Origin: Phycicoccus sp. Root101
Lineage (GTDB): Bacteria > Actinomycetota > Actinomycetes > Actinomycetales > Dermatophilaceae
Assembly (NCBI RefSeq): GCF_001426245.1
Contig: NZ_LMCM01000005.1
Coordinates: 434,001-498,000 of the forward strand
Direction: 5' to 3'
DNA length: 64,000 nt
Under the pieces are notes generated by a model. It was not told the origin of the DNA, ran no database searches, and saw only the letters and a program-made list of their open reading frames with translations. The position numbers and the translations under genes were made by a program. Shown here one piece after another: positions 26,625-47,324 of this stretch (position 1 is its first letter; every line of letters starts with the position of its first letter).

Positions 26625-26671
26625 GGACGCTACGTCACTGATCGCGCCACGCGATCAGTGACGTAGCGTCC
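26625..26671. repeat. Perfect 22-bp stem / 3-base loop hairpin, copy 1 of a dispersed repeat
   Basis: Left arm 26625-26646, loop CCA, right arm 26650-26671, with no mismatch. The 18-base core GCTACGTCACTGATCGCG and its complement recur exactly at 36258-36296. It sits between convergent genes (stop 26617; minus-strand stop 26721), so it can also act as a terminator. The conservation of arm sequence across two unrelated loci is what marks it as a repeat family. Confidence 0.85.
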
Positions 26672-27128: not shown

Positions 27129-30100
27129 CTACCCCGGTGCACCAGGGCCAGCGAGCGGGGCAGCCGCCGGGCCGTCGACGGCCCCGGTGCCAGGCCGGGC
27201 GACCTGCACAGGGCTGGCAGATCCCCGCCGCACCAGGTGACCTCGCCCCGGCCGGGCCCGGCGGTCCACGGGGACCCGCAACCCGAAGAGGTCCGCCTCC
27301 GCCGAGGATGCGGGGCCGAGGAGGAGACCCGTGCGGTGGCGTGCGACCTCGAGCGCCGCGCCGCGGTACATGGAGGACAGGGTGCTCGCGGCGGCGCCCA
27401 CGACCAGGAGCCCCTGGTCACGGTCGGCTAGGTGGGAGACCTCGCGCAGGACCGCCTCGACGGGCTGGTCCAGCAGCGCGTCGACGTCGTCGGCCAGCAC
27501 CACCAGCGAGGGAGCCCGCCGACGGGCCTCGACGAGACCGCCGCCGTCGGTGCCGTCGGACCAGCTGAGGACGGCCGGCTCGGCGCGCAGCACCTCCAGC
27601 GGGCCACCCCGCGGTGCGACGACCGCGACGGGTCGGCCGGCTGCGAGGTGCCGGCGAGCGAGGAGGAGCAGCGCGCTGGACACACCGGAGGCGGCGGGGC
27701 CCGTGACCAGCCAGCGTCGTCCGTCCTGCCGCGGGTCGAGCCCCAGCACGGTCGACTCGTCGCCCCCGATCCCGACGGGCACGATGCCGGCCGGGTACGG
27801 CGGCCGGTCCGGGTGCGGCCGGAGCTCCTCCTCATGCACCTCCAGGGGCAGCTCGTCCACCCGAAGGGGCGACCGCCCCGGCAGGTCGGTCGTCGGCGGA
27901 CTGGTCGTCGGCGGGCCTTCCTCGTTGCGCGGCTCCGGCGGCAGGGCGAGCTGGACCTCGTTCCCCTCCATGGTGAGTCCCCGCCCGGGGCAGGTGAGGG
28001 CAGCGACCCGGCCCGGCGGCATACCGAGCAGGACCGCGTCCGTGGGATCGGCCAGGCGCAGCACGACGCGTCGGGTGACGGTGCCGGCCACCCGGCCCAG
28101 GAGGAGGGAGCGGCCGCCTGCGACGACCGCGGTGAGGCCGACTCCCTGCCCGTCCTGCAGGAGAGCGAGGAGCTGGTCGGTGAGGGTGCTGAGGGCGAGG
28201 TCGTCGGTCCGGCCGGCGACGAGGTCCCAGTCGTCGACGAGCAGGAGCATCGGCGGCAGGGCGGTCCCGTCGCCGCGGGCCAGGGCGGCACGGCGTTCGG
28301 CGACCTCGGTGGCGAGTCGCGAGACCAGTCGTTCGACCCGCCTGGGGTCGGTCCAGTCGACGACGGCACCCACCTGTGGCAGGGCCGACAGGGCGGCCAA
28401 GCCGCCACCGAGGGCGTAGACGTGCAGCGACGCGGCGTCGCGTTGGTTGCAGCAGGCCACGGCATGGGTGAGCAGGGCGGTGGTCCGGCCACTGCCCGGT
28501 CCGCCGACGACGGCCCAGTGACCGCGGGCGCGCAGGTCGAACGCCAACATCTCGCGCGACTGGCGTTCCGGCACGTCCACCAGCCCGAGGTGTGCGGTGA
28601 ACGGGTCGTCGGTGGCGTCGAGGTCTGCGTGGGGAAGCTCGACGGGGAGGGGCGGCAGCCAGGCGGGGCTGGCCGCGACGAAGCCGCCCGCAGCCGTGGC
28701 CTGCCGCACGGTGTCGACGATGACGCCGAGCTCGGTGCGCGTCGCGGGACCCGTGCGCGGCTGTGCGGGAGGGTCGGCGCTCCACGCCCGGACGCGGACC
28801 GGTGTCGCCCGTGGCTGTGGAACCAGGGCGCCCACGTGCGCGGACTGGAACTCGACCAGGCCCGAACCGCCGACGCGGGCGTAGGCGCGGCCCGGCGTCG
28901 AAGGGGGCAGGGCAGCAGCCGCAGGGCTGTCGACGACGTCCTCGGAGTCGAGACGGTCACGCATGCGCAGAGCGATGCGGAGGTTGACGTTGGCCTTGAT
29001 GTCGGCGGTGACCACACCCGCGGGGCGTTGGGTGGCGAGGACGAGGTGGATGCCCAGGGACCGGCCGAGGGCTGCAAGGTGGACCAGGCCGTCGACGAAG
29101 GCGGGGAGCTCGTCGGCGAGGGCTCGGAACTCGTCGACCACCACGACGAGCCGGGCCAACGGCAATGCCGCTCCTGCTGGACTCGCTTGGTACGCAACGA
29201 GATCGGCAACACCGGCAGCTCGCAGGATGCGTTCGCGGCGCGTCACCTCGGCAGTGAGCGACGTCAGTGCGCGGGCGGCCAGCTGGTCATCGAGGTCCGT
29301 GACGACGCCGGACACGTGGGGTAGGTCCGCGCACTCCCGGAAGGCCGCCCCGCCCTTGTAGTCGACCAGGACGAAGGACAGGTGCTGGGGCGCGTTGTGC
29401 AGGGCGAGGCTCGCGACCAGGGTCCTCAGCAGCTCCGACTTGCCCGCCCCCGTGGTGCCCCCGACGAGGACGTGGGGTCCGTCGGCGGCGAGGTCGATCG
29501 AGAAGACCCCGGAGCTGCTCGCCCCGATCGGCACCCTCGTGCGGTGCGGGTGGTCGTGCCAACGCCGTGCCAGGTCGGCGCCGTCCTCGCCCGCAGGTCG
29601 GTCACGGGCCAGCAGGCCGACGTTCGTGGGCAGGGCAGCCCGCCCGTCCGCCGGTGTGGCGTCACGCAGGGGAGCCAACGACCGGGCGAGCCGGTGCGGC
29701 CACCCGGGCCCGACGCCGTCCACGACGAGGTCGTGGTGCCGGTGGTCGGTGAGCGAGAGCGTGGGTGCGCCGTTGCCGGAGAGCTCGAGGACGGCACCGG
29801 CCTCGTTCGGCAGCTCACGGAGGTCCGAGCCCAGGGCCAGGGTGAGGACGCCGGCCCGTGGTCCGTCGGCGAGAACGGTCGCGAGGTCGGTCAGCTCCCG
29901 GGCCCCGACCATCGCGTCGACCACGACGACGGTGGTGGGGCCGTCCCACCGACCGGGCCGGCGGTCGGCACGGCGTAGACGGACGGTGGCTGCCAGGTCG
30001 GCGAGGGTGGTGTCGGTGTTGTCAGGCGACCCCCCTCGTCGGGAGCTGTTGTGGCAGTGCGGGATCCGGGTCACCCACTCCCAGGTCGCCCGTTCCGGGG

Positions 30101-31403
30101 TGTCGGCAAGGATGACGACCTCCAGGTCGGAGGGCGAGTGCATCGTCACCAGCTGGCCCACCAGCGACCGTGCACTGGCGAGGACGGCCGCTCGCTGACC
30201 GCAGAGCCCGAGAACGCCGACGTCGACGAGGGAGACGACGCACGGGACGTCCCGGAGGTGCGGCTGCACCAGGTCCCCGGCCGGTTCGCCACCGGACGTG
30301 AGGCGCAGCGAGGCATCGCGACCACACCGACCGACCGCGACGGTCCACGCGTCGTCGTCGCCGCGACGCCGCTCCCAGATCCGCTCCGTGGGTCCGGAGG
30401 CGATCCCCAGGATCGTGGCGGGGTCGGGGAAGGTGCAGTGGAGCGTGCTTGCCTCTGTGCGGCAGGTGGCCTCGATCCGTTCGCGCACGACCCGGAGCGC
30501 AGCGTCGTGCGCCGCCCGCTCACCGGCATACGTGCGGCGGGCGCCCCAGCGGTCGCTCAGCGCGGTGCCGACCATGAGCACCGGACCCATCAGGGCGAAG
30601 GCGAGCATGGTCGGGCCCACCACGACGGCGAGGACGCCGGCGACGGGTACCGGCAGGAGGACGGCGACCCATGGCACGCGGGCGCGCCGCGGGGGTGGGG
30701 GCGGGGTCGGCAGGGCGATCGTCGGTGTCGGCGCAGGGTCGACGACGCGGGGGCGGCGGTTGACGGCCACGGTGCCCTCGCCGGTCGCCCTCGTGGAGGC
30801 GGGGACCGCGCCGGTGTGGCGCAGGGCCACCACGGTGTCTCCGAGGTGGATGACGCTCGCCGTGGTGACGGGGACAGGCTGGTCGCCGACGAGCGTGCCG
30901 TCGACCCGGGAACCGTTGGTCGACCCCAGGTCCCGCAGGGTGACGCCGGACGCGTCGACACGGATCTCGGTGTGCAGCCTCGAGAGGCTGGGGTCAGCGA
31001 TCTCGATGGTGGCCTCGGTGGACCGGCCGAGGGTGTGTCGTCCCGGCTGCAGGTCGAGGGTGCGCCCGCACTCGGGGCCGTGCGTGATGGCGAGGACGAC
31101 CGTGGATCGGGAAGGCCGGCGAGAGCCATTGTCCTGCAACAGATGTGGAGGTTGCAGGGTGACTTCGGCTCCGTCGAGCAACGGCGGCTGTCCCACGACG
31201 GCCCCGGGCGCCACCACCCGGCCGGCAACGGCCAGGGACGGTGGCTCGGCCGTCGTGGCGGCCCGAGGTGCGAGGTGGTCGACCAGGGCATCGACGAGAT
31301 CGGCCGCGGTGGAGCCGGTGACTGCGTCGACCTCCACCTCCACCGTGGCGAACCCGGCGGAGGCACCCGGGGCGCGGTGCGTGACGGTCAGCCGCAGGTG
31401 CAT
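27129..31403 (-). CDS. FHA-domain FtsK/SpoIIIE ATPase (EssC/EccC-like)
   Basis: 1424 residues. Order: a ubiquitin-like or EsxB-like N-terminal beta region (about 1-90); an FHA domain (about 105-190, with GRSTEATIEIADPSLSRLHTE and LRDLGSTNGSRVDG); two adjacent membrane helices (about 228-265, VAVLLPVPVAGVLAVVVG and MLAFALMGPVLMVG); then three P-loop modules. The first has a good Walker A GGTTGAGKSE near 648 and DYKGG. The second has GGPGSGRTTAL near 965. The third is degenerate (TGPAASGVSSA, near 1230). This is the layout of type VII secretion EssC/EccC motors. No WXG100 substrate or other T7SS gene adjoins it. It is divergent from the Tad pilus operon. Confidence 0.9.
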   Translation of the reverse strand: MHLRLTVTHRAPGASAGFATVEVEVDAVTGSTAADLVDALVDHLAPRAATTAEPPSLAVAGRVVAPGAVVGQPPLLDGAEVTLQPPHLLQDNGSRRPSRSTVVLAITHGPECGRTLDLQPGRHTLGRSTEATIEIADPSLSRLHTEIRVDASGVTLRDLGSTNGSRVDGTLVGDQPVPVTTASVIHLGDTVVALRHTGAVPASTRATGEGTVAVNRRPRVVDPAPTPTIALPTPPPPPRRARVPWVAVLLPVPVAGVLAVVVGPTMLAFALMGPVLMVGTALSDRWGARRTYAGERAAHDAALRVVRERIEATCRTEASTLHCTFPDPATILGIASGPTERIWERRRGDDDAWTVAVGRCGRDASLRLTSGGEPAGDLVQPHLRDVPCVVSLVDVGVLGLCGQRAAVLASARSLVGQLVTMHSPSDLEVVILADTPERATWEWVTRIPHCHNSSRRGGSPDNTDTTLADLAATVRLRRADRRPGRWDGPTTVVVVDAMVGARELTDLATVLADGPRAGVLTLALGSDLRELPNEAGAVLELSGNGAPTLSLTDHRHHDLVVDGVGPGWPHRLARSLAPLRDATPADGRAALPTNVGLLARDRPAGEDGADLARRWHDHPHRTRVPIGASSSGVFSIDLAADGPHVLVGGTTGAGKSELLRTLVASLALHNAPQHLSFVLVDYKGGAAFRECADLPHVSGVVTDLDDQLAARALTSLTAEVTRRERILRAAGVADLVAYQASPAGAALPLARLVVVVDEFRALADELPAFVDGLVHLAALGRSLGIHLVLATQRPAGVVTADIKANVNLRIALRMRDRLDSEDVVDSPAAAALPPSTPGRAYARVGGSGLVEFQSAHVGALVPQPRATPVRVRAWSADPPAQPRTGPATRTELGVIVDTVRQATAAGGFVAASPAWLPPLPVELPHADLDATDDPFTAHLGLVDVPERQSREMLAFDLRARGHWAVVGGPGSGRTTALLTHAVACCNQRDAASLHVYALGGGLAALSALPQVGAVVDWTDPRRVERLVSRLATEVAERRAALARGDGTALPPMLLLVDDWDLVAGRTDDLALSTLTDQLLALLQDGQGVGLTAVVAGGRSLLLGRVAGTVTRRVVLRLADPTDAVLLGMPPGRVAALTCPGRGLTMEGNEVQLALPPEPRNEEGPPTTSPPTTDLPGRSPLRVDELPLEVHEEELRPHPDRPPYPAGIVPVGIGGDESTVLGLDPRQDGRRWLVTGPAASGVSSALLLLARRHLAAGRPVAVVAPRGGPLEVLRAEPAVLSWSDGTDGGGLVEARRRAPSLVVLADDVDALLDQPVEAVLREVSHLADRDQGLLVVGAAASTLSSMYRGAALEVARHRTGLLLGPASSAEADLFGLRVPVDRRARPGRGHLVRRGSASPVQVARPGTGAVDGPAAAPLAGPGAPG

Positions 31404-31572
31404 CTGCCGGACGCTAGGTCGTCGCCGTGTCCGTTGCGGCCGGTTATCCACCCTTGTGGATTCAGCGGGACGGCGGTGGGCGGTTCGCCCTATTATGCGG
31501 CAGACACACCGGGCTCGCGTCCGTGGCGGGGGCCACTGCGGGCACAGACGGCAGCTCGAGGGGGAGGTGACG
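31404..31572. promoter_or_regulatory. Divergent promoter region between FHA-FtsK and tad operon
   Basis: 169 bp. A TATTAT hexamer at 31491-31496 within GCCCTATTATGCGG is a plausible -10 for the tad operon, but no good -35 is seen. ATCCAC-CCTT-GTGGAT near 31447-31462 is a perfect 6-bp inverted repeat that also resembles paired DnaA-like boxes (TTATCCAC). A strong ribosome site GGGGAGGTG precedes tadA. Confidence 0.35.
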
Positions 31573-32796
31573 ATGGACGCGGTCCTGACCGTGGAGTCCG
31601 AGGTGCGCGAACTGATCCGGCGCTCCGGACTCGACCCCGCGCGCGACACCAAGGAGCTCACCCGACTGGTGCGTGATGCCGTGGCGGACTACGACGAACG
31701 CTCGCTGCACGGCGGACTGCCCAGCCTGCCGAACGTCGAGGACGCCGTGAAGTCCGTGATCGACGCGGTCGCCGGGTTCGGCCCGCTCCAGCAGTACTTC
31801 GACGATCCCGAGGTCGAGGAGATCTGGATCAACGAGCCGTCCAAGGTGTTCGTCGCCCGCGGTGGGGTGGCCGAGCTGACGACGACGTTCCTCACGGCCG
31901 ACGGCGTCCGCGACCTCGTCGAACGCATGCTCAAGACCAGCGGGCGCCGGGTCGACCTCTCCAGCCCCTTCGTCGACGCGGTGCTCCCGGACGGCTCCCG
32001 GCTGCACGTCGTCATCCCCGACATCACGAGGTCGCACTGGAACGTGAACATCCGCAAGTTCGTCGTCCGGGCCTCGCACCTCGACGACCTCGTGGCGCTG
32101 GGCACCCTCACCCCCCAGGCCGCGACCTTCCTGGGTGCCGCCGTCGCCGCCGGGTTGAACATCCTCGTCGCCGGCGGAACGCAGGCAGGCAAGACGACCC
32201 TGCTGAACTGCCTCAGCTCCGCGATCCCTGCGCGCGAGCGGGTGGTCACGTGCGAGGAGGTCTTCGAGCTGAAGATCCCCCTGCGGGACGTCGCGTCCAT
32301 GCAGTGCCGCCAGCCGAGCCTCGAGGGCACTGGCGAGATCCCGTTGCGACGTCTGGTGAAGGAAGCCCTTCGTATGCGGCCCTCACGCATCATCGTGGGC
32401 GAGGTGCGGCAGGCCGAGAGCCTCGACCTCCTCATCGCCCTCAACAGCGGCCTGCCCGGGATGTGCACCATCCACGCCAACAGCGCCCGGGAGGCGATCA
32501 CGAAGATGTGCACGCTGCCGCTGCTGGCCGGCGAGAACGTCGGCAGCCGCTTCGTGGTCCCCACCGTCGCCGGATCCATCGACATCGTCATCCACGCCGC
32601 ACTGGAGCACGACGGGGTGCGACGGGTCCGGGAGATCGTGGCGGTCCCGGGACGGGTCGAGGCCGACGTCGTCGAGGTCGCCGACCTCTTCGTCCAGCGC
32701 GAAGGAGTGCTGCGCCGGGCCGAAGGGTTCCCGCCGCACCCGGAGCGGTTCCGCCGGGCGGGGTTCGATGTCGCCGCGCTCCTGGCGCAGGGCTGA
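31573..32796 (+). CDS. tadA: Tad pilus secretion ATPase TadA/CpaF
   Basis: 407 residues, ATG with GGGGAGGTGACG upstream. It is a type II/IV secretion-superfamily hexameric ATPase that powers Flp/Tad pilus assembly. It contains GFGPLQQYFDDPEVEEIWIN (about 63), Walker A GGTQAGKTTLLN (about 199), the Asp box CEEVFELKIPL, the Walker B region MRPSRIIVGEVRQAE (about 267) and the His box GMCTIHANSAREAI. It is the first gene of a seven-gene operon. Confidence 0.95.
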   Translation: MDAVLTVESEVRELIRRSGLDPARDTKELTRLVRDAVADYDERSLHGGLPSLPNVEDAVKSVIDAVAGFGPLQQYFDDPEVEEIWINEPSKVFVARGGVAELTTTFLTADGVRDLVERMLKTSGRRVDLSSPFVDAVLPDGSRLHVVIPDITRSHWNVNIRKFVVRASHLDDLVALGTLTPQAATFLGAAVAAGLNILVAGGTQAGKTTLLNCLSSAIPARERVVTCEEVFELKIPLRDVASMQCRQPSLEGTGEIPLRRLVKEALRMRPSRIIVGEVRQAESLDLLIALNSGLPGMCTIHANSAREAITKMCTLPLLAGENVGSRFVVPTVAGSIDIVIHAALEHDGVRRVREIVAVPGRVEADVVEVADLFVQREGVLRRAEGFPPHPERFRRAGFDVAALLAQG

Positions 32797-36227: not shown

Positions 36228-36631
36228 GGCGGGAGGGGAGGGCAGGGGTGTGTGGCGGCTACGTCACTGATCGCGGAGCGCGATCAGTGACGTAGCGGCG
36301 TCGAAAGGGTGGACCGGGACTGGGCGGTGTCGAGGTCGGCGCCGGCCTGCTCGAAGATGGCCTCACCCCGAGCGCGTGACGATCCGCGACACCGGCGCCG
36401 CGCGTCCACGGGCGACGGCCGTCCGGAATGACGGTGTTTGTGGCGGCGCTGATGGCGGTTCTGTGACAGGCCGTTGACCGCGGCGCCTCCCCGCTGGTTA
36501 CCTGCAAACAGCACCATTGGCTTGCATTCGCTGGGGATTGGCTGCGAGGGGGAACCTGCGGCCGACCACTTTTCCGGGCGCCCTGACGGGCCGTCCTTCG
36601 TCGTGCCCGCACCCGCTCAGGGAGGTATGCC
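36228..36631. other. Gene-free region upstream of the giant-protein operon
   Basis: 404 bp with no supported coding sequence. It holds hairpin copy 2 (36258-36296). Further on is a less biased stretch (36420-36560) containing TTGACC at 36474 and, 18 bases on, GGTTACCTG. That combination is a weak promoter candidate. The GTG start of the giant gene is preceded by GGAGG at 36621-36625. Some of this may be a long 5' leader. Confidence 0.5.
36258..36296. repeat. Perfect 18-bp stem / 3-base loop hairpin, copy 2 of dispersed repeat
   Basis: Left arm GCTACGTCACTGATCGCG (36258-36275), loop GAG, right arm the exact complement (36279-36296). The arms are identical to the inner 18 bp of the hairpin at 26625-26671; only the loop and flanks differ. 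It lies 30 bp past the last tad gene and could terminate that operon. Confidence 0.85.
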
Positions 36632-39600
36632 GTGTCGCTGTGGGACGAGCTCCCCGCCGGCGCGCAGAGCTCCGGTGCCCTCGACCAGGTCAGACCGCTC
36701 CTGCAGGGGCTGAACGCCATCGACGACGGCCTGCACACCGACGAGGACGGGACCTGGCACGTCTACACCGCCAGCGGCACGTGGCCCACGCCCATCACCC
36801 TCGATCCGGGCTCCGGAGGGTTCGGCAACGGCGGCACCACGAGCACGACCCCCATCGAGTTCCCCGACCCCACGGTCAGCGTCGAGCTCGCCCTGCACCA
36901 GTCGGGTGGCGTCGGCGACGGCGGCTGGCGGGTGACCCTGGGCGTGCCGATCGTCCTGGTACGACTGCCGTTCCTGCGTGGCGCCGAGCTGGACGGTCAG
37001 GGCCAGCTGCGGGCCAACGGCATGCCCGTCACCTTCACCCTCCCCGCCCTGCGGATCCGGGCCAAGCAGCTGAGCGGCCAGTCGGTCGGCGTCGAGCTGC
37101 TGTCCGCCGAGACCGGCGGCACGCCGGTCGACCACATCTACGAGTTCATCTCGATGAACCCGCCCCACGCCCTGGTCGGTCCGTCGGACGTCGTCGGCTT
37201 CGCCTTCCGGACAGCGGTGCTCGACCTCTCCGGCACCGCCGGCCCCGGGGTGCCGGCCGAAGCGCGCGCGATGCCCGCCGACTGGCAGGGCTTCTGGCTC
37301 CCCGAGGCCCGCCTCTTCGTCGCCCCGACCGGGCTCCAGGGTGTCGCGGTGAGCGCGGGTGTGCGCGACCTGTGGATCGGCCTCGGCGTCCACGCAGGCG
37401 TCACCGGGATCTTCGAGGCGGAGGTGGTCAACCGCGGCGGGACCCCGACGATGACCGTGAGCTTCCGCACCGCCTCGGGGGAGTGGATCGGCGACCCCGG
37501 CGCGGGCGCCGCACAGGTGCCGGAGCACGCGACCCTCTTCGTAGACACCGCCGGCGGGCTGGCTCCCATCACCGTCAGCATCGACGTCGACGGCACGGTC
37601 ACGACCGACGACCGCGTCGAGGTCACCGTCCCCGCGACGGGCAGCCTGTCCATCACAGTGACCGCGACCGACGGTGTAGGGAACCCGACCACGCGCACCT
37701 TCAGCGCGGTGCGGCGCACGGACCCGAGCGGCACCGGTGGCAGCTCGACGGTCACGGTGACGCCGACCAACACCCGGCCGCACGCCATACGGGAGGTGCC
37801 GGGGGCCGGGACCGCCACGATGGTGCGGCTGACCACCGACCCGCCGGTGCCGGCGAACTGGACCTGGACGGGTGGCTCGGTGGGGCCGTCCGTGACCGCG
37901 GACGTCCCCGTCGCGGCGGGGGCCCGCGTGGACGTGACCGCGACGCTCCCGGCGACGCAGCCGCAGGTGATCGACGCGTACTACCTGTTCGCGAAGCCGG
38001 ACCCCTTCAACCCCACCATCACCGGGGCGCTGCACACGTGGGCGAGCAACCCCGACAACGTGCGCACGGGGCAGGCGTCGAGCCGCGACAACGCCGGAGG
38101 GTCCGCCCCACTGACCCAGGCCCTCACCCCGGCGGTCATCGCCCAGATCGGTGCCGGCACGGCCCTAATCGTCAAGGGGTATGCGTCGTGGGAGGGGACC
38201 CAGCACGACACCCCCGCGGACGCGGACTACAACCGCAAGCTCAGCGAGCGCCGCCGTGACGTGATGGTGGATCTGTTGCGCAGCAAGGGTTTCACGAATG
38301 TCACGGCCGGGAGTGCGGACGGGTTCACCCTCGCGAAGTCGCATACGACGTCGGTCGAGGGGACCACGCCGCCGCCCGCGGCAGGCAGCGGCGCGTGGTG
38401 GCGTGCCCGGGCCACCACGGCAGGGAACGGTGAGGAGACCATCACCGCGAGGGTCGAGCGCGTCGTCACGCCGCCGCCGCGCGAGGTGGACCGCACCCCG
38501 CCCACCGGTGGCCGGCCGGACTGCTTCCGCAAGATCGGGGTCCGGGTCGAGCTCCTGCGCAGCACCTTCATCCGGGCCGAGGTGTACGGCGAGTTCGACA
38601 TCGAGACCGCCGCGGAGACCGCCCTGCGCCAGCACGGACAGCAACAGCTGCGCCAGGGCACACGCAACCCCAGCGACGGCATCTGCACGTTCCTCGTCCG
38701 GCTGCGCATCGCCGAGGACCGCGACTCGTGGCTGGTCAGCGCCGAGTTCAGGGCGGCGGAGGCGGACCTCGACGGCCTCGCCCAGATGGACCTCGCCCAC
38801 TCCAACCCCAACGCCCTCAACGTCCTCGGCGCCCTGAGCATCCTCGCGCCGCTCAGCTCCGCCGCAGCCGAGCTGAGCCCGGCCGCCGGCGCGCTCGTGT
38901 CGCTCGGGAGCATCGCCCTCGGTGCGAGCAGCCTGATCAACACCCAGAAGATCATCCTGCGCGGCGGCGAGCTCGTCGTCAGCCAGGGGGTCATCGCCCC
39001 CGACGGCTCGGCGACCGTCGACCCGCGCGGCACGACGGTGAGCATCCTGCTCGACATCGAGGTCACCTTCACGTTCGACCTGACGATCGTCCGGGTCAAC
39101 CCGGAGCACCCGGTGACCACGCGCTACAAGGCGATCGGTGTCCGCTCGTCGTGGAACACCGCCCCCAACCCGTCGAACCCGGGCCACGTCGACTACCTGC
39201 CGGTCCCGGTGTTCGACCCCAGCAAGGGCTACAGCCTCGACATCCCAGCAGGCGCCCTCACCGCCAGCCCGCCGCTCGACGAGCTGCTGCGGGTCCTGGG
39301 CTTCCGCGTCAGCCGCGACAACCCGACCTACATGGAGGTGGAGGTCGGGCTCGGCCTCGACCTCGGCATCGTCACCGTCGAGACGGTCCGGATCAGGGCG
39401 CGGCTCGATGGCCCCTTCGAGCTCAGCCTCACCAAGCTCGCCGCCTCGATCGACGTGCCGGGGACGTTGCACGGCAGGGGATCCCTGGAGTTCACGCCGC
39501 TCGGGTTCAAGGGCTACTTCGACCTCACCGTCACGCCCATCAACCTGCGTGCCAGCGCCGTCCTCGCCGTCGAGACCCGCGACGGCGTCACCGGGGTGCT

Positions 39601-42600
39601 CATCGGGGCCGAGGTCGAGCTCCCCGTCCCGCTGCTGCTCGGCAACTCCGGCCTGGGCATCTACGGCTTCCTCGGCGGTGTGGGGATCAACTACGCACGC
39701 AACGAGGCCCCGTATGCCGCGCGGCCGGTGCCCGCCCTCGACTGGCTGCAGGCACAGCTCGAGCGGGGCACCGTCATGCACCCCGACGGGTGGACCGTCA
39801 CCCCCGGCGGGTACGCGTTCGCGGCGGGCATGCTGCTCGGCACCGTGGACGGCGGGTTCGTCGTCAACCTCAAGGGCATCGTCCTCATCGAGGTGCCCGG
39901 CCCGCGCCTGCTGCTGGTCATGAAAGCCGACGTCCTCAAGCTGCCGCCGGTGCTCAAGGACTCCACGCAGAGTGCGACGTTCCTCGCCGTCCTCGACATC
40001 GACTTCGGCCGCGGCACGATCACCCTCGGCATCGTCGCCGCCTACGAGATCAAGAGCCTGCTCAAGATCCGCGTTCCGGTGACGGCGTTCTTCGACACCC
40101 GCAACCCCCAGAACTGGCTCGTCGACCTCGGCTCCTACGAGGACCGCGTGACGATCGAGGTGCTCGACGTCATCACCGGCAGCGGCTACCTCATGGTGCA
40201 CGGCAACGGCATCACCATCCCCGTGCTGCCGCCCGTGACCGGCGGGATGGCCATCGCCACGGGGTTCCACATCAGCTGCGTCCTCATGGGCAGCAAGGCG
40301 GTGGGGCTCTACCTCGAGGTCGCCGGCGGCTTCGACGCGATCCTCGGGTTCGACCCGTTCTTCCTCGCCGGCAAGATCTACGTCCGGGGCGAGCTGCGGC
40401 TGTTCATCATCAGCATCGGGGCCAGCGCGGAGCTCGACGTGCTCGTCGGCCGCACGACCCCCAGCAGCCCCGACGTCACCTACGTCCACGGCGAGGTCTG
40501 CGGCGAGGTCGACTTCTTCTTCTTCAGCGTCAAGGGCTGCGTGTCGCTCACCATCGGCTCCCAGCCCAGCGAGACCCTGACGCCACCACCCCTCGTGGCC
40601 GGAGTGAGCCTTGTGTCGAGGTCGCCCGCCCTCGTCGAGGGCACCGGTGGCGAACGTGCCATCGACGGCAAGCTGGCGGACGCCCTCGGGGACGGTGTCG
40701 CGGGCACACCGCCCACGGTGCCGCTCGACGCCGTACCGGTCGTGCTCTTCAACACCGCGCCCTCGGTGGGTGGGCCGGTCCTGGGAGGTGCGCCGCTCGG
40801 CAACAGCGGGGCACGGCCCTGGGTGCGGCTCGGGGACCGCTGGTGGACCTACCAGGTCACGTCGGTCACGCTCACCGGCGACCTCCAACCGCCCGCTCCC
40901 GCAGGCAAGACCCCGAGCTCGTGGTGGAAGCAGACCTCGCCGGCGGATCCGTCGTCCGGTCCGGCGTTGGCCCTGCTCAACTGGCTGCCGACGCCGTTCA
41001 GCCGGGCACTGCCGTACGGCGAGGCTCTGACCACGAGCGTCACCGACCGGTGGGGGACGGTGTGCAACCCGGCGGCGCCACCCGCCCCAGTGCTCTGGAC
41101 GTTCGACGGGAAGGCGCCCGGACCGAGCACCGTCGGGTGGCACCTCACCGGCATCCCTTGGCCCGACCCGCCCGACACGCTGCGCACCCGCCCGGTGCAC
41201 GCGGACTGCGACGTCACCGAGGCGTGGCGCACGGGCGACCCGGCCATCGACGTCCTGCAGGGCACCAACCCGGCCGTGGTCGTCGGTGACGCCGTCCGCT
41301 GCTGCGAGAAGCAGCCGGGTCGTCCCCAGCCGAACCCGCTCAAGGGCTGGGTCGCCACCGCCGGCGCGACGTTCTCGCACCGGGCCGCCGCCACCGACGA
41401 GCGCGCCTGGGGCGAGGTCGCCGCGGCGCTGGCAGGCGGAGCGAGCCTCGCCGACGTGCAGGCCACCCGGCTCGGCCAGGGCTGGGACCCGGCGCTGGGT
41501 CTGGCCGTCGGGGTGGCCGGCCCGCAGGCAGCCGGCGTGGCAGTGGGTCGGGCGGCGTCCGTCGGGCTCGGCTGCGAGGGACGCATCCTCAGGTCACCGG
41601 TGCTCGACTCCGACGAGCCGGCACCCCGCGGCACCGAGTCGGACATGGAGCGGGTCAAGCGGGCGTGGGACCGGTTGAAGTTCCAGCCGGGCGACCTGCG
41701 CGACGTCCTGCGGGTCACCCCGGGCGGTGGGGCGGGCGACCTGACCATGCTGCTGCTCGTCCCCGAGGAGGTCTTCATGGACCGCCTCGTCGTCCGGTGG
41801 CTCGACGCCAAGGGCCAGGTCCTCGACCAGCGCGGCCTGGGCTCCGACGACCGGGTCGACACCGACAACCCGCTGCCCGGCGCCTGGATGGACGGCGACG
41901 GGCCGTGGGCCGACCCGATCTGCCGGGCCGGCCAGGTCGCCGCCCGCACGGCGGCACGGGCCACCTGGCCGCAGACCCTGCTGCTGGTGGGCTCGCGTGA
42001 CCTGAAGGAGGTCGCCACCATCGAGATCGGTTGGGACACAGGGCGGTTCCCGAAGGACCAGCAGCCACCCGCCTTCCACCTCGTCGCGATGACGGGGGTC
42101 GTGACCAGCGAGGCATCCCGCTGGGAGTGGGACAGCTCCGTGGTCTCCAGCGAGCAGGAGGCCATCTCGACCGCGCTGGCCCAGGACCCCGACGACCACG
42201 CGCTGCTCGTACCGGGCCGGTCGTACACCGTGACGGTCGCCTGGAAGGCCGCGTCGGTGAAGCAGGACGCCGAGCCGACGGTGGCCCCGACCTGGGACGG
42301 GGGGCACAGCGACAGCTTCCGGTTCGCCGCCGACGGGGCGGACGAGTCGCCGAAGGACCTCTCGCCGTGGCTGCTGGCGACGGCGCCCGGCATGGACGAC
42401 GTCGGCGTCCTGTGCGCCGAGCCGATCCGCATCGCCCTGGCCACCCAGAACGTCACGGCCCTCTTCGACGCCTACGGCAAGGAGCTGCGGGTCATCGTCC
42501 TGGCCGCCTCGGGCAAGCACCCGGTGCCGCCGGGCGGCGGGGCCCCGGGGAGCGCGTTCACCGTGCCCCTCGAGGTCGACGGCATCCACCTCAAGAAGGC

Positions 42601-43411
42601 CCTCGGGCTGTCCGTCACGACCCCGTGGGAGGAGGCGGTCGTCGAGGTGCTCAGCCAGGGGCAGCAGTGCATCGACGTCTCGGGTGAGCGGACCCACCAC
42701 GACGTCCTCGAGCTGCCCTACGACCTGGAACCCCTCACCGACTACCTCATCGACATCCACGCCGTCCCGAAGGGCGCACCCGCAAGTGCGCGGGCCCTCG
42801 TGCACCGGATCGGCTTCACCACCAGTGCCTTCGGCACGGTCGCCCAGCTGGCCGGACTTCTCCGGGAGGCGCGCTGGCGCCATACCGTGGTCCCGGCGAT
42901 CGGACCCCTCACGGCCCTGCCGGACGCACCCACCGGTGACCAGCTCGACTCCGCGTTCCAGGCCGCGGGGCTCACCGTCCCGCAGACCCCCGGCGCGCCG
43001 GTCGTGCAGGTCCTCTGGTCGACCGACGCCGTCCCCGCCCCGCTGGCCGTCGTCGTCGAGTGCAGCGAGACCCTGTGGCGCAACAGGCTCATGCCGACCC
43101 AGGTCCAGGGACCGGTCGACTCGGTCGACCCCACGCACCACTGGTGGGCTGCGCGACCGACCGACTGGTTGTCCCTGCAGGCGAGCACCGCTGCGGCACC
43201 GGCGGGTTCGCTGCCCGCCGCCGGGATCACGCGCATCATCCGTGGGCCCGGTCTGGGGCGGGCGGTGGTCCTCCTCGGCGCCGGTGCGCGCGGCACGCGC
43301 GTGGCCCTCGACCTCGTGGTCGCCGCCGATGCCCTGGCCAACGCGCCCGAGTCCCGGGCGGTCGCCGTCGACGTCCCGCTCCAACGCGCACCCTGGGAGG
43401 AGGAGCTCTGA
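36632..43411 (+). CDS. Giant hypothetical protein with OmpA-like segment and long beta-rich domain
   Basis: 2259 residues, GTG start with GGAGG six bases upstream, no signal peptide. Visible blocks: an N-terminal beta-rich part with Ig-like strands (about 60-480); an OmpA-like segment (about 490-560, IGAGTALIVKGYASWEG then YNRKLSERRRDVMVDLLRS); a hydrophobic Ala/Leu/Ser helix pair (about 729-768); a very long run of amphipathic strands (about 800-1310, including GSLEFTPLGFKGYFDLTVTP and GIYGFLGGVGINYARNE); and a C-terminal half with a CC pair near 1555. The middle block is reminiscent of DUF6603-type very large proteins, which I cannot verify. It overlaps the next gene by one base. Function unknown. 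Confidence 0.8.
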   Translation: MSLWDELPAGAQSSGALDQVRPLLQGLNAIDDGLHTDEDGTWHVYTASGTWPTPITLDPGSGGFGNGGTTSTTPIEFPDPTVSVELALHQSGGVGDGGWRVTLGVPIVLVRLPFLRGAELDGQGQLRANGMPVTFTLPALRIRAKQLSGQSVGVELLSAETGGTPVDHIYEFISMNPPHALVGPSDVVGFAFRTAVLDLSGTAGPGVPAEARAMPADWQGFWLPEARLFVAPTGLQGVAVSAGVRDLWIGLGVHAGVTGIFEAEVVNRGGTPTMTVSFRTASGEWIGDPGAGAAQVPEHATLFVDTAGGLAPITVSIDVDGTVTTDDRVEVTVPATGSLSITVTATDGVGNPTTRTFSAVRRTDPSGTGGSSTVTVTPTNTRPHAIREVPGAGTATMVRLTTDPPVPANWTWTGGSVGPSVTADVPVAAGARVDVTATLPATQPQVIDAYYLFAKPDPFNPTITGALHTWASNPDNVRTGQASSRDNAGGSAPLTQALTPAVIAQIGAGTALIVKGYASWEGTQHDTPADADYNRKLSERRRDVMVDLLRSKGFTNVTAGSADGFTLAKSHTTSVEGTTPPPAAGSGAWWRARATTAGNGEETITARVERVVTPPPREVDRTPPTGGRPDCFRKIGVRVELLRSTFIRAEVYGEFDIETAAETALRQHGQQQLRQGTRNPSDGICTFLVRLRIAEDRDSWLVSAEFRAAEADLDGLAQMDLAHSNPNALNVLGALSILAPLSSAAAELSPAAGALVSLGSIALGASSLINTQKIILRGGELVVSQGVIAPDGSATVDPRGTTVSILLDIEVTFTFDLTIVRVNPEHPVTTRYKAIGVRSSWNTAPNPSNPGHVDYLPVPVFDPSKGYSLDIPAGALTASPPLDELLRVLGFRVSRDNPTYMEVEVGLGLDLGIVTVETVRIRARLDGPFELSLTKLAASIDVPGTLHGRGSLEFTPLGFKGYFDLTVTPINLRASAVLAVETRDGVTGVLIGAEVELPVPLLLGNSGLGIYGFLGGVGINYARNEAPYAARPVPALDWLQAQLERGTVMHPDGWTVTPGGYAFAAGMLLGTVDGGFVVNLKGIVLIEVPGPRLLLVMKADVLKLPPVLKDSTQSATFLAVLDIDFGRGTITLGIVAAYEIKSLLKIRVPVTAFFDTRNPQNWLVDLGSYEDRVTIEVLDVITGSGYLMVHGNGITIPVLPPVTGGMAIATGFHISCVLMGSKAVGLYLEVAGGFDAILGFDPFFLAGKIYVRGELRLFIISIGASAELDVLVGRTTPSSPDVTYVHGEVCGEVDFFFFSVKGCVSLTIGSQPSETLTPPPLVAGVSLVSRSPALVEGTGGERAIDGKLADALGDGVAGTPPTVPLDAVPVVLFNTAPSVGGPVLGGAPLGNSGARPWVRLGDRWWTYQVTSVTLTGDLQPPAPAGKTPSSWWKQTSPADPSSGPALALLNWLPTPFSRALPYGEALTTSVTDRWGTVCNPAAPPAPVLWTFDGKAPGPSTVGWHLTGIPWPDPPDTLRTRPVHADCDVTEAWRTGDPAIDVLQGTNPAVVVGDAVRCCEKQPGRPQPNPLKGWVATAGATFSHRAAATDERAWGEVAAALAGGASLADVQATRLGQGWDPALGLAVGVAGPQAAGVAVGRAASVGLGCEGRILRSPVLDSDEPAPRGTESDMERVKRAWDRLKFQPGDLRDVLRVTPGGGAGDLTMLLLVPEEVFMDRLVVRWLDAKGQVLDQRGLGSDDRVDTDNPLPGAWMDGDGPWADPICRAGQVAARTAARATWPQTLLLVGSRDLKEVATIEIGWDTGRFPKDQQPPAFHLVAMTGVVTSEASRWEWDSSVVSSEQEAISTALAQDPDDHALLVPGRSYTVTVAWKAASVKQDAEPTVAPTWDGGHSDSFRFAADGADESPKDLSPWLLATAPGMDDVGVLCAEPIRIALATQNVTALFDAYGKELRVIVLAASGKHPVPPGGGAPGSAFTVPLEVDGIHLKKALGLSVTTPWEEAVVEVLSQGQQCIDVSGERTHHDVLELPYDLEPLTDYLIDIHAVPKGAPASARALVHRIGFTTSAFGTVAQLAGLLREARWRHTVVPAIGPLTALPDAPTGDQLDSAFQAAGLTVPQTPGAPVVQVLWSTDAVPAPLAVVVECSETLWRNRLMPTQVQGPVDSVDPTHHWWAARPTDWLSLQASTAAAPAGSLPAAGITRIIRGPGLGRAVVLLGAGARGTRVALDLVVAADALANAPESRAVAVDVPLQRAPWEEEL

Positions 43412-46400
43412 TGGCACGCAGGTCCGACTCGTCGCTGTTCCGCGCCAAGGCCGTCCGACTGCCCTGGGCGACCCTCGCCGCTCGGCAGCGCGCGCTCCTG
43501 CGCCGGCTCGACCACCTCGAGGCCGGGACGCATGCGGCGTTCGACGACCGCCGGCTTCAGCTGCGCTCCATGGACATCCACCTCAGCTGGGCGTGCGGTC
43601 CGGGCCTCGGGGTGCCCCGCAGCGCGTTCACCGTCTGGACGCGCAGCCCGAAGGACGCGCCGAAGCGCACCAAGGCGTTCGTGTCGTCCGACCGCATCCC
43701 CCTCGTCCTCTGGGGGCCCGTCGAGGCCGGCTGCGTGCAGGTCACCTGCCGCCCGGTCGACCCCGGCCAGCCGGTCGCCGTGCTGCTGTTCCGCACCGGT
43801 GACGACCCCGACCACGTCGTGGCGGCCGGCTCGCTGCAGCCGTCGAGCGCCGACCCCCTCACCATCGTCGTCCGCACGTCCGGGGCGACGTACGCCAAGG
43901 TCGTCAACGGCACCGACATCCGCGTCTCCATCGACCCGCTCGAGCGGATCGTCGACGACGACGGGTGGAAGGAGCTCGAGTACGTCGGGCTGCCGGTGGA
44001 CCAGCCGTTGGCCGGGTTCGAGTACGACACCTCCGACCAGGGGCCCGTCGACCGCCTCATGCCCCCGGTCGACGCGGCCGTCCACCGGCTGCTGCGCGGC
44101 GGCCCACCCCTGGGCTGGGCACCGGTCACCGAGTCCGGACGGGCCGCGCCCCCCTGGCAGGCCCCCGACCCCAAGCTGCTGGTCGAGGAGGTGCGGCGCG
44201 ACCTGTTCCCCGAGCTGCCCGCCCTCTACGACCCGGGGGTGCGCGAGTACCAGCAGTTCGCCGTCACCAGTCCCCGGGCCGTCGATCCGCCGCAGCAGGA
44301 CGGGCGGACGTCGTCGCTCGGCACGACCGCCGACACCGGCCCCTGGCCGATGCTCATGCTGCCGGCCCTGAGCGACCCCTTCCTCAACCTGGCCACCGGG
44401 TTCGGCGCGAGCTACACGATGGAGAAGATGGACGACCTGCAGGTGGCGGTGGGCCGTTGCGACTTCCTCGTCACGGCGAAGTACTCCCGGCTGGCACCGC
44501 CGGAGCGCGGGGGAGGGGAGTTCGCGGCCTACGCCCCTGCTCCAGAACCGCACCTCCTCGTCCCCACGCCCACGGGGCTCACCTCGGAACGCGCCGGCCT
44601 GGTCGGCCCGGTCGTTCCCGACGCGCCGTGGCGCGAGTCCGTGCGGCTCAGCTGGGACCGTGTGCCCAAGGCCGCCGCGACGTCACCGGTGACCGAGTCG
44701 GCGCTGGCGAGGTTCGACCTGATGACCGCCGGACCAGCGGTGTCACTGCTGCCGCGACGCGACGCGGGTGGCGACCGGCCGCTGCTCGTCACCCCCGACG
44801 GCCCTGAGGGCGAGGCGGGCAACAACCGCATCGCGCTCGTCGACGGGGGACAGGAGATCCCCATCGGCAGCGGTGGCCGCCACCTCGGGTACGCCGTCGC
44901 GGTGAGCGACCTGCACGGGCTCTGGTCGCCCTGGCAGGACGTGGCGTGGAACGGGGACGAGCCCGCACCCCAGCCGACCCGCCTCATCTCCGTGGCCCTC
45001 GACACCCGGTGGACCGGGTCGTCGTCGTGCCCCGGCACGCTCAAGGCGGAGGTCGCCGTCGAGTGGGAGGAGCGCACGCCCACCCAGGTCGACCTCGTGG
45101 CGATCTACTTCCCCATGGCCTCACCGACGGCCACGCCGCCCGCGGGCCTGTCCCCGGATGCCGTCACCCCGCCCGGGTGCTTCCGCCGGGACCTCGGGTT
45201 CACGTTCGCCGGCGACACCCCGGTCCCGTCGGGCTGCACCGTCCGACCGCTGTCCGCCGACGGCACCGAGACCGCCGTGCCCGGCCCGGCCCAGGGCGAC
45301 GGCGGTCGCCGCTACGCCGTGGTCGCCGACGTGCCGACGCTGGACTTCTCCGGCACCGGACGCTGGGGGGTGCAGGTCTGGACCCGGCGCCAGCTCCTCG
45401 TCGGCGCCAGCCCCACCCCCTGGGCGCCCGGGGAACCCCACCCCGCCCGCACCAGCGCCGCCAGCCCCGTCCCGGTCGTCCCCCTCCCGCCGCCACCGCT
45501 GCCCGGCGTGCCCCTCGGCAGCACCCTCGACGCGCAGGGCTGCAGCCACGTGCGGGTCGCGTGGTCGCTGCCCGGTGGGGCCGACGTGCGTACCTGCATC
45601 GTCTGGGAGGTCAACGAGACGTCCCTGCGCCAGCGGGCCGGGCTCGCGCCGAAGGCGCCCGACTCGACCGTCCCCGGCCAGCGGCTGGTCGACCTGCGCA
45701 GCGCGTACGACGCGATGACCCCGACCCAGCGCCGCGCCGCCTTCCGCAGGTTCCAGGAGGTCGACGGGGCCGTGCGCACCTATGACGCCACCCTGCCCAA
45801 GGGGTCCACCGACATCCACCTCTTCGTCGTCACCACGATGACGAAGTCCGGGGTGGAGAGCCCGTGGCCGGACTCCGGAACGCCCCACGAGCACCTCCAG
45901 GCCGTCATGGCGCCACGGCTGCGCCGGCCGTCACCTCCGCTCGCGCGCCCGTCCGTCGCCCTGGACGGCACCGTCACGATCCGTCTGTATGCCGCGAGCG
46001 ACATGGCGGTGCAACGGTTCAGGCTCCATCGCACGACCTCCGAGGAAGCGGCCCGCGACGTGTCGACGATGGGTCCGGCCTTCGCCGACGTGGTCGTCAC
46101 CACGGTCCCGTCGCCCGCGGACGTCGACCCCGTGCTCGGCCAGCCGGTCTGGTCGGCCACCTGGACCGGCACCCTCCCGGCGCGGTGGGACCCGTGGCTG
46201 CTGCGATCGGTCGCCGTGCCCGTGGACACGGTGCCCGCGAAGGCGGAGCGGGGGCTGCCGTCCGCAGCCTCCGACGTCGTCGCCGTCACCGTCCCACCCG
46301 GTGCCCCCGAGCTCGAGCCGCTCACCGCCGACGTGTGGGGAGGCGACCACCGGGGGGTCGTCGTGCGGTCCGCCACCTCGGCTCCGCCCCGCGTGCTGCC

Positions 46401-47187
46401 GGCCGGCGTGCACCGCCTCGACGGGTCGGCGGGCGCGGACGAGGTCGCTGCCGTCGCCCTGCCCGACGTCGCGCTCACCGCACTGACCACGCCACCGCCC
46501 GCCGCCGCGACGACCCCGACGTTCGAGCAGGGCGCCAGGGTCGCGGGACGGACACCGCTCGCCCTGTGGTTCACCCGCCCGGTCGCCGGCGACCCGGTCG
46601 ACGTGCGGGTGCGGCTGGTCGACCCGCTCGGGCGCGAGCTCACCCGGGACCTCACCGTGCCGGGGTGGGTGGAGCCGCCCCCGGACGTCACGGTCTCGCT
46701 GGTCGACGTCTTCGCCATCGCCGGCCGCGGCGTGCACGTCGGCATCCGGACCGACGCCAGTGCCCGGCGGCGGCCCCCCTACGTCTTCGAGGTCGTCGCC
46801 TCCCAGCGCCTCGTCGGCCCCGTGGTGCTCCCCGACGGCCCCGTCCGCTTCCCCCGCGGCGCCGGTGGTGGCGCGGGTGGAGGCGGTGGCCTCCGTGGCG
46901 GGTTCCGTCGCGGGCTGCCGTTCCCGGTCGGGCCGTTCCCGCCGGTCGGTCCCTTCCTGCCGCGGGCGCGGACCCTGACCGGGACGTTCCCGTTCGACGA
47001 GATCCCGTGGGCCTCCGACGGGGTCCCGAGGAGCGGCGAGATCGTCGTCGTGCGCAACCGGCTCCGCCGTGGTCTCGGCGCTCCGCCCCCGTACGAGGCC
47101 TTCATCCCCCTCACCGGTGCCCTGTCCATCTCGGTCACCGTCGTCAGCCCCGAGGGACAGCGGGTCACGGCGACGGCGACCACGTGA
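43411..47187 (+). CDS. Large hypothetical protein, multi-beta-domain, partner of the giant protein
   Basis: 1258 residues. ATG shares its first base with the previous stop (TGATG) and has GGGAGGAGGAG upstream, so translational coupling is likely. There is no signal peptide or membrane helix. It starts SSLFRAKAVRLPWATLAARQ, then beta-rich modules; an FnIII-like unit is suggested by SHVRVAWSLPGG with CIVWEVNE near 712-735. A Gly-rich hinge, GAGGGAGGGGGLRGGFRR, and a Pro/Phe run (GPFPPVGPFLP) occur near 1150-1180. The C terminus ends in strands. No enzyme motif is recognised. A terminator-like hairpin follows, so the two-gene unit is self-contained. Confidence 0.8.
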   Translation: MARRSDSSLFRAKAVRLPWATLAARQRALLRRLDHLEAGTHAAFDDRRLQLRSMDIHLSWACGPGLGVPRSAFTVWTRSPKDAPKRTKAFVSSDRIPLVLWGPVEAGCVQVTCRPVDPGQPVAVLLFRTGDDPDHVVAAGSLQPSSADPLTIVVRTSGATYAKVVNGTDIRVSIDPLERIVDDDGWKELEYVGLPVDQPLAGFEYDTSDQGPVDRLMPPVDAAVHRLLRGGPPLGWAPVTESGRAAPPWQAPDPKLLVEEVRRDLFPELPALYDPGVREYQQFAVTSPRAVDPPQQDGRTSSLGTTADTGPWPMLMLPALSDPFLNLATGFGASYTMEKMDDLQVAVGRCDFLVTAKYSRLAPPERGGGEFAAYAPAPEPHLLVPTPTGLTSERAGLVGPVVPDAPWRESVRLSWDRVPKAAATSPVTESALARFDLMTAGPAVSLLPRRDAGGDRPLLVTPDGPEGEAGNNRIALVDGGQEIPIGSGGRHLGYAVAVSDLHGLWSPWQDVAWNGDEPAPQPTRLISVALDTRWTGSSSCPGTLKAEVAVEWEERTPTQVDLVAIYFPMASPTATPPAGLSPDAVTPPGCFRRDLGFTFAGDTPVPSGCTVRPLSADGTETAVPGPAQGDGGRRYAVVADVPTLDFSGTGRWGVQVWTRRQLLVGASPTPWAPGEPHPARTSAASPVPVVPLPPPPLPGVPLGSTLDAQGCSHVRVAWSLPGGADVRTCIVWEVNETSLRQRAGLAPKAPDSTVPGQRLVDLRSAYDAMTPTQRRAAFRRFQEVDGAVRTYDATLPKGSTDIHLFVVTTMTKSGVESPWPDSGTPHEHLQAVMAPRLRRPSPPLARPSVALDGTVTIRLYAASDMAVQRFRLHRTTSEEAARDVSTMGPAFADVVVTTVPSPADVDPVLGQPVWSATWTGTLPARWDPWLLRSVAVPVDTVPAKAERGLPSAASDVVAVTVPPGAPELEPLTADVWGGDHRGVVVRSATSAPPRVLPAGVHRLDGSAGADEVAAVALPDVALTALTTPPPAAATTPTFEQGARVAGRTPLALWFTRPVAGDPVDVRVRLVDPLGRELTRDLTVPGWVEPPPDVTVSLVDVFAIAGRGVHVGIRTDASARRRPPYVFEVVASQRLVGPVVLPDGPVRFPRGAGGGAGGGGGLRGGFRRGLPFPVGPFPPVGPFLPRARTLTGTFPFDEIPWASDGVPRSGEIVVVRNRLRRGLGAPPPYEAFIPLTGALSISVTVVSPEGQRVTATATT

Positions 47188-47190
47188 GGT

Positions 47191-47219
47191 CGCGAGGTGG
47201 GTGACGAACCCACCTCGCG
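47191..47219 (+). terminator. Terminator hairpin after the giant-protein operon
   Basis: CGCGAGGTGGGT (47191-47202) pairs perfectly with ACCCACCTCGCG (47208-47219) across a 5-base loop, starting 4 bp after the stop codon. Confidence 0.75.
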
Positions 47220-47324
47220 GCATACCGGCGTGTGGTCAGGGCCACCCGCCCGGGCGGTCCGACGCCCCGGTGGCCGGACTAGAGTGCCGGGTGAACCACA
47301 CCAATGGCGCTGGAGGCTTGAACC

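Follow-up and report, generated by a model that had tools for sequence, protein, structure and literature searches.

A conserved pair of giant proteins at a variable site in Phycicoccus, one of them by profile match a divergent DUF6603 member

What might two overlapping genes for very large proteins do in the actinobacterium Phycicoccus sp. Root101? The 64,000-nucleotide stretch analysed here (the window; contig NZ_LMCM01000005.1, positions 434,001 to 498,000, from an assembly of 4.38 Mb) contains two genes, A and B, that overlap by one base and are each preceded by a Shine-Dalgarno-like GGAGG run.

Gene A, 36632-43411, plus strand: 2259 residues, GTG start; a divergent DUF6603 protein, by profile match, with an amphipathic beta meander.
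Gene B, 43411-47187, plus strand: 1258 residues, ATG start; a mixed N-terminal domain followed by predicted fibronectin type III (FnIII) or immunoglobulin (Ig)-like modules.

The coordinates of both open reading frames (ORFs) agree with a first-pass annotation, made from the sequence of the window, which had described a two-gene unit with a one-base overlap. We propose, tentatively and with a probability of roughly 0.4, that A and B, together with a third protein C where it is present, form an undescribed giant-protein complex in which the sheet of A would bind lipid or membrane and B would act as a scaffold.

The pair itself is a conserved unit that is inherited together and evolves together. 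One scan of genome contigs yielded 49 distinct loci, spanning, to go by the record titles, Actinobacteria, Proteobacteria, Acidobacteria, Bacteroidota, Gemmatimonas and Anaeromyxobacter. B is present at 48 of the 49 A loci, and at the remaining one A reaches the contig edge. The counts for B and C over these loci used profiles built from the same sequences, so that their E-values follow by construction; independent support for both across the loci comes from BLAST with single proteins. For phylogenetic comparison, broken, cut and close duplicate copies were omitted, leaving 42 rows for A (the window and 41 of the 49 loci), 39 for B (the window and 38 of the 49) and 37 common to both. Over these 37 rows the A and B trees have 28 of 34 splits in common, and the two distance matrices correlate at r = 0.967, against a maximum of 0.19 in 1000 permutations. 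Ratios of nonsynonymous to synonymous substitution rates (dN/dS) against three genus genomes are 0.09-0.20 for A and 0.13-0.25 for B, so both genes are maintained by purifying selection. Neither outcome that would have counted against the first-pass annotation came about: the pair recurs as a unit in relatives, and neither protein has a strong match to a characterised family. Because adjacency is conserved, the trees match and selection is purifying, A and B may well be obligate partners that bind each other in one complex.

Some copies look damaged. At loci L048 and L070, A and B read as several consecutive frames and appear broken or mis-assembled, and B of the genus genome G003 reads as two open frames, through either a frameshift or an assembly error. 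A tblastn search of plasmids returned seven records, none with a single place spanning 80% of A.

Direct scans did not assign the pair to a known family: whole A and B gave nothing above cut-off in Pfam, NCBIfam or PHROGs, the sub-threshold matches being PKD at 10.9 bits and an OmpL47 barrel in A at 17.8 bits. The A core and B likewise matched nothing meaningful in the PDB by sequence. A slice of the A core matches DUF6603 (PF20248) at 31.8 bits, where the gathering score is 27, and covers positions 14-252 of the 502 in the profile. The suggestion at the outset to look at DUF6603 was thus well placed. The score of A in the genome search was 28.8 bits, the whole-protein scan missed the match, and only 12 of 42 A-core sequences match DUF6603 at E<=1. 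By profile match, then, the A core is a divergent and partial member of this family of unknown function, from which A differs in its ends and its partners. No paper was found under the names DUF6603 or PF20248 among open-licence PMC texts.

Strong DUF6603 matches sit in frames of about 700-3350 residues within other giant-gene clusters, and the partners there match neither the B nor the C profile. One set of partner families is common to the actinobacterial genomes of loci L099-L102, another family to L097 and L098. In a comparison of 21 proteins, a single DUF6603 protein matched the A-core profile and no protein matched that of B or C; seven partners from L100-L102 gave no Pfam match above cut-off. 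Since the strong-DUF6603 clusters have other partner families, giant-protein clusters built on DUF6603 appear, from their sequences, to be of more than one kind. One such frame, of about 3300 residues with a strong DUF6603 match at C9:338176-339555 (L097), belongs to the genus genome G006, which lacks A-B at the site described below and carries this frame elsewhere. On a Mycetohabitans plasmid (L011:8288-21309) the order is a 1322-residue protein, a phospholipase-D (PLD)-like protein with an intact HKD motif and a DUF6603 giant.

Three regions of A bear on what it may do.

OmpA-like segment of A, 38129-38431, plus strand: about residues 500-600, from a family profile match.
Hydrophobic helices of A, 38807-38926, plus strand: residues 726-765, from the model and hydropathy.
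Beta meander of A, 38936-40555, plus strand: residues 769-1308, containing the DUF6603 match (residues 890-1124).

The first-pass annotation had picked out all three, as an OmpA-like segment, a hydrophobic helix pair and amphipathic strands at about 800-1310, and each finds support. A profile of 29 family rows matches Outer membrane porin F (5u1h) at E 1.9e-7, and Pfam OmpA matches 13 of the 29 N-terminal regions of the A family at E<=0.1 (best 6.4e-4); the N-terminal region of the window's A alone gave no Pfam OmpA match. At the position of the GHTD-like motif, which we take to be the peptidoglycan motif of OmpA, window A reads GYAS, its Asp replaced, and all 11 window-type rows read G-x-A-S. 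This segment may attach A to the wall or to a further partner. The 19-mers of highest hydropathy in A begin at residues 751 (1.74), 728 (1.61) and 1068 (1.61), and the model places three helices within residues 726-765. Across 33 strands of the meander, the two faces differ in mean hydropathy by 2.97, compared with 1.29 (sd 0.17) in shuffled sequences, and in five of these strands the difference is below 0.8. Because the strand faces alternate and fold matches, if weak, point the same way, we suggest that A forms an antiparallel amphipathic sheet that lies on, or encloses, lipid, membrane or another hydrophobic surface, much as the ApoB-100 belt does.

The nearest solved folds to the model of A are the ApoB-100 belt, porins, ushers and LptD, all of them weak matches that cannot be ranked apart. 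Foldseek puts PapC, FimD and LptDE chains first, and VIA returns mostly porins, at a root-mean-square deviation (rmsd) of about 10. The fold matches listed include no bridge-like lipid transfer protein of the VPS13/TamB type. This beta-meander likeness to ushers, LptD and porins sustains the main rival of a lipid or membrane scaffold, namely that A is a very large transmembrane barrel or pore of that type, with the OmpA-like segment as its peptidoglycan anchor and B as an extramembrane rod; a Paracoccus relative is indeed annotated 'outer membrane protein'. We nonetheless consider a pore unlikely. The pair is present in Phycicoccus, Cellulomonas, Kribbella and Microbacterium, which are not known to have an ordinary outer membrane, and window A has, as judged from hydropathy only, no hydrophobic N-terminus. 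Both points, which also set A apart from ushers, LptD and porins, weaken the pore, as does the replaced Asp in the 11 window-type rows. The N-terminal argument is softer than it looks, since the best N-terminal 12-mers, at 0.56 for A and 0.62 for B in the window (B having no hydrophobic N-terminus by the same measure), rise to about 2 in some relatives.

Several observations also weigh against our preferred reading, in which the sheet of A contacts lipid. The model of A is of moderate quality (mean predicted local distance difference test score, pLDDT, 74.6; predicted template modelling score, pTM, 0.48), Foldseek aligns it with low TM-scores (0.08-0.20 by query, among the matches listed), and it would not tell an open sheet from a closed one. 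By VIA's own rule ApoB-100 (14.1) ties with the best porin (13.3), and the ApoB-100 match has an rmsd of 21.7 and lacks support from sequence. Pfam found no ApoB-type N-terminal module in A, in a scan that missed DUF6603 as well. Lipid binding would thus follow by analogy, from the strand faces and weak fold matches. The distribution of C, given below, adds to these points. In the N-terminal regions of 29 A-family sequences, scans that may miss divergent domains gave no vitellogenin-type Pfam match. The ApoB-100 belt is accordingly a comparison of how the protein might work: A is bacterial, has no sequence relation to it and matched no N-terminal lipid-transfer module.

B is better modelled than A (mean pLDDT 88.4, pTM 0.57).

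FnIII/Ig-like modules of B, 44554-46668, plus strand: residues 382-1086, from the model and fold matches.
Gly-rich hinge of B, 46858-46902, plus strand: residues 1150-1164, from sequence.

In the predicted structure B is a mixed head followed by a string of FnIII/Ig-like modules, and both the model and fold matches give an FnIII-type beta-sandwich, as the first reading of the sequence had it. The Gly-rich hinge, also noted then, is visible in the sequence and falls in the stretch of B that is least shared. This rod would serve as a scaffold or adaptor. Many receptors and complement proteins appear among the Foldseek matches of B, as does the adhesin SiiE, and FnIII strings, OmpA-like pieces and Ig-like pieces are frequent in surface proteins. 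An extracellular or surface assembly of A and B, an adhesin or matrix exported non-classically or released by lysis, might account for these likenesses; FnIII by itself, however, says nothing on location. We compared neighbours across 54 loci through the 60 largest families, many of them shadow frames. Besides A, B, C and apparent shadow frames, the widest family occurs at 7 of the 54 loci and resembles, by eye, a short-chain dehydrogenase. No exporter-like family recurs widely among the 60, the relatives' neighbours not having been named by family search. We therefore regard the surface assembly as doubtful. The first-pass annotation had favoured an undescribed assembly, possibly an extracellular or surface machine: a tightly coupled, mostly beta and conserved pair survives from this proposal, while secretion or surface display found no support. 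By hydropathy the window proteins have no hydrophobic N-terminus, and none of the neighbour families compared is shared widely enough to suggest a dedicated exporter. At L058:17204-18421 and L066:17359-18666, the gene 3' of B has repeats that we take, by eye, to be hemopexin-like.

Many relatives encode a third protein, C, of about 1050 residues. It follows B at 23 of the 49 loci (at 18 of the 38 where 3.5 kb or more lies beyond B), and all 23 are among the 34 loci that are not of the window type. No C lies beside any of the 15 window-type actinobacterial loci (in two, less than 3.5 kb follows B), and 11 of the 34 others, three of them cut at contig edges, lack it as well. C is therefore not essential, and the window lineage may work without an adjacent C. 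In the window genome the C profile matches only part of a 529-residue ORF with an intact HKD motif, and there is no full C; in G017, from the window's family, A and a full C lie on one contig.

The C-terminal part of C retains a PLD-like context, with DD, G, RRG and FD invariant across 13 rows; of 23 readable rows, however, none retains the catalytic HxK (a further row is truncated). BLAST with the Mycetohabitans PLD-like protein, which matches Pfam PLDc_2, stands in another gene order and keeps HxK, reaches C proteins at up to 4e-7. This link, and the match of the C profile's end to the HKD-bearing protein of the window genome, tie C to the phospholipase D superfamily, from which it differs in lacking HxK and any Pfam PLD match (none in 13 C proteins). 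Against the PDB by sequence, C met only plant phospholipase D alpha 1, not significantly (E 2.7), at the degenerate motif. As far as sequence can tell, then, one half of C is phospholipase-D-like but has lost the catalytic His and Lys, and where C is kept this half may bind without catalysis, perhaps to lipid head groups. A more specific form of our reading is a cross-phylum counterpart of the ApoB belt, with A coating a lipid body or membrane patch, B as spacer and the dead PLD reading head groups; we hold this to be unlikely and speculative.

On the chromosome the pair occupies a variable site, as an accessory trait. Of 98 genomes searched, 8 have the A core, a count that includes the window genome and one weak match (E 5.5e-4); of 11 genus members, 4 carry it. 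All four genus copies have Tad-pilus genes on one side and the thiolase gene on the other, G003 and G008 carrying additional DNA there. The matches to the flanking genes come within about 180-290 bases of each other in G006, G010 and G002; in G001, G005, G009 and G004 about 2.7-28 kb of other DNA separates them, and the A, B and C queries found no match in that of G001, G005 and G009. Upstream of the pair in the window are Tad-pilus-type genes (TadE, a weaker TadE, Tad, two T2SSF and T2SSE); downstream are thiolase, MeaB and a protein kinase. Beside the Tad-pilus-type genes, 27129-31661 on the minus strand encodes a 1510-residue FtsK/EssC-like ORF with an FHA domain. This ORF and one of 1643 residues (NAD-glutamate dehydrogenase) contradict an earlier statement that the pair is mismatched in size with everything around it.

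Patchy presence at a variable site, and relatives on plasmids, could also suggest a toxin-like or anti-competitor complex of A, B and C on a mobile islet. We consider this very improbable: A and B have no enzyme or toxin domain match in Pfam, NCBIfam or PHROGs, PADLOC, searched with A, B and three relatives from Rhizobium, gave no match at E<=1, C lacks the phospholipase HxK, and no phage or viral relative was found. Phage origin was likewise set aside, with no relative in phage records or one viral-contig scan and no PHROGs match; the phage-tail-like neighbours once thought worth seeking are absent from the 20 window ORFs scanned. Composition gave no sign of foreign origin, the islet GC of 0.734 showing no notable difference from 0.724 on the left and 0.723 on the right. 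No RNA elements or tRNAs were found.

A hairpin flanks the pair on each side, as first described.

Left hairpin, 36258-36296, no strand: a REP-like dispersed palindrome.
Right hairpin, 47189-47221, plus strand: directly 3' of the B stop, without a T run.

Both are real by energy and z-score (left, 18 bp stem, -39.6 kcal/mol, z -7.5; right, 14 bp stem, -30.3 kcal/mol, z -7.7). The right one is a probable terminator. An arm of the left one has 14 genome matches at <=2 mismatches, against 0 for the reversed control; being a dispersed genomic palindrome, it is not specific to the operon. The window has a second copy of this REP-like palindrome at 26630-26666.

Taken together, A and B, joined by C in many lineages, provide a branch of DUF6603 with defined partners and a fold hypothesis, and one genus offers a natural presence/absence series for A-B, so the function of the pair can be put to the test. 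If the belt reading were true, bacteria would have independently evolved an ApoB-like wrapping of lipid.
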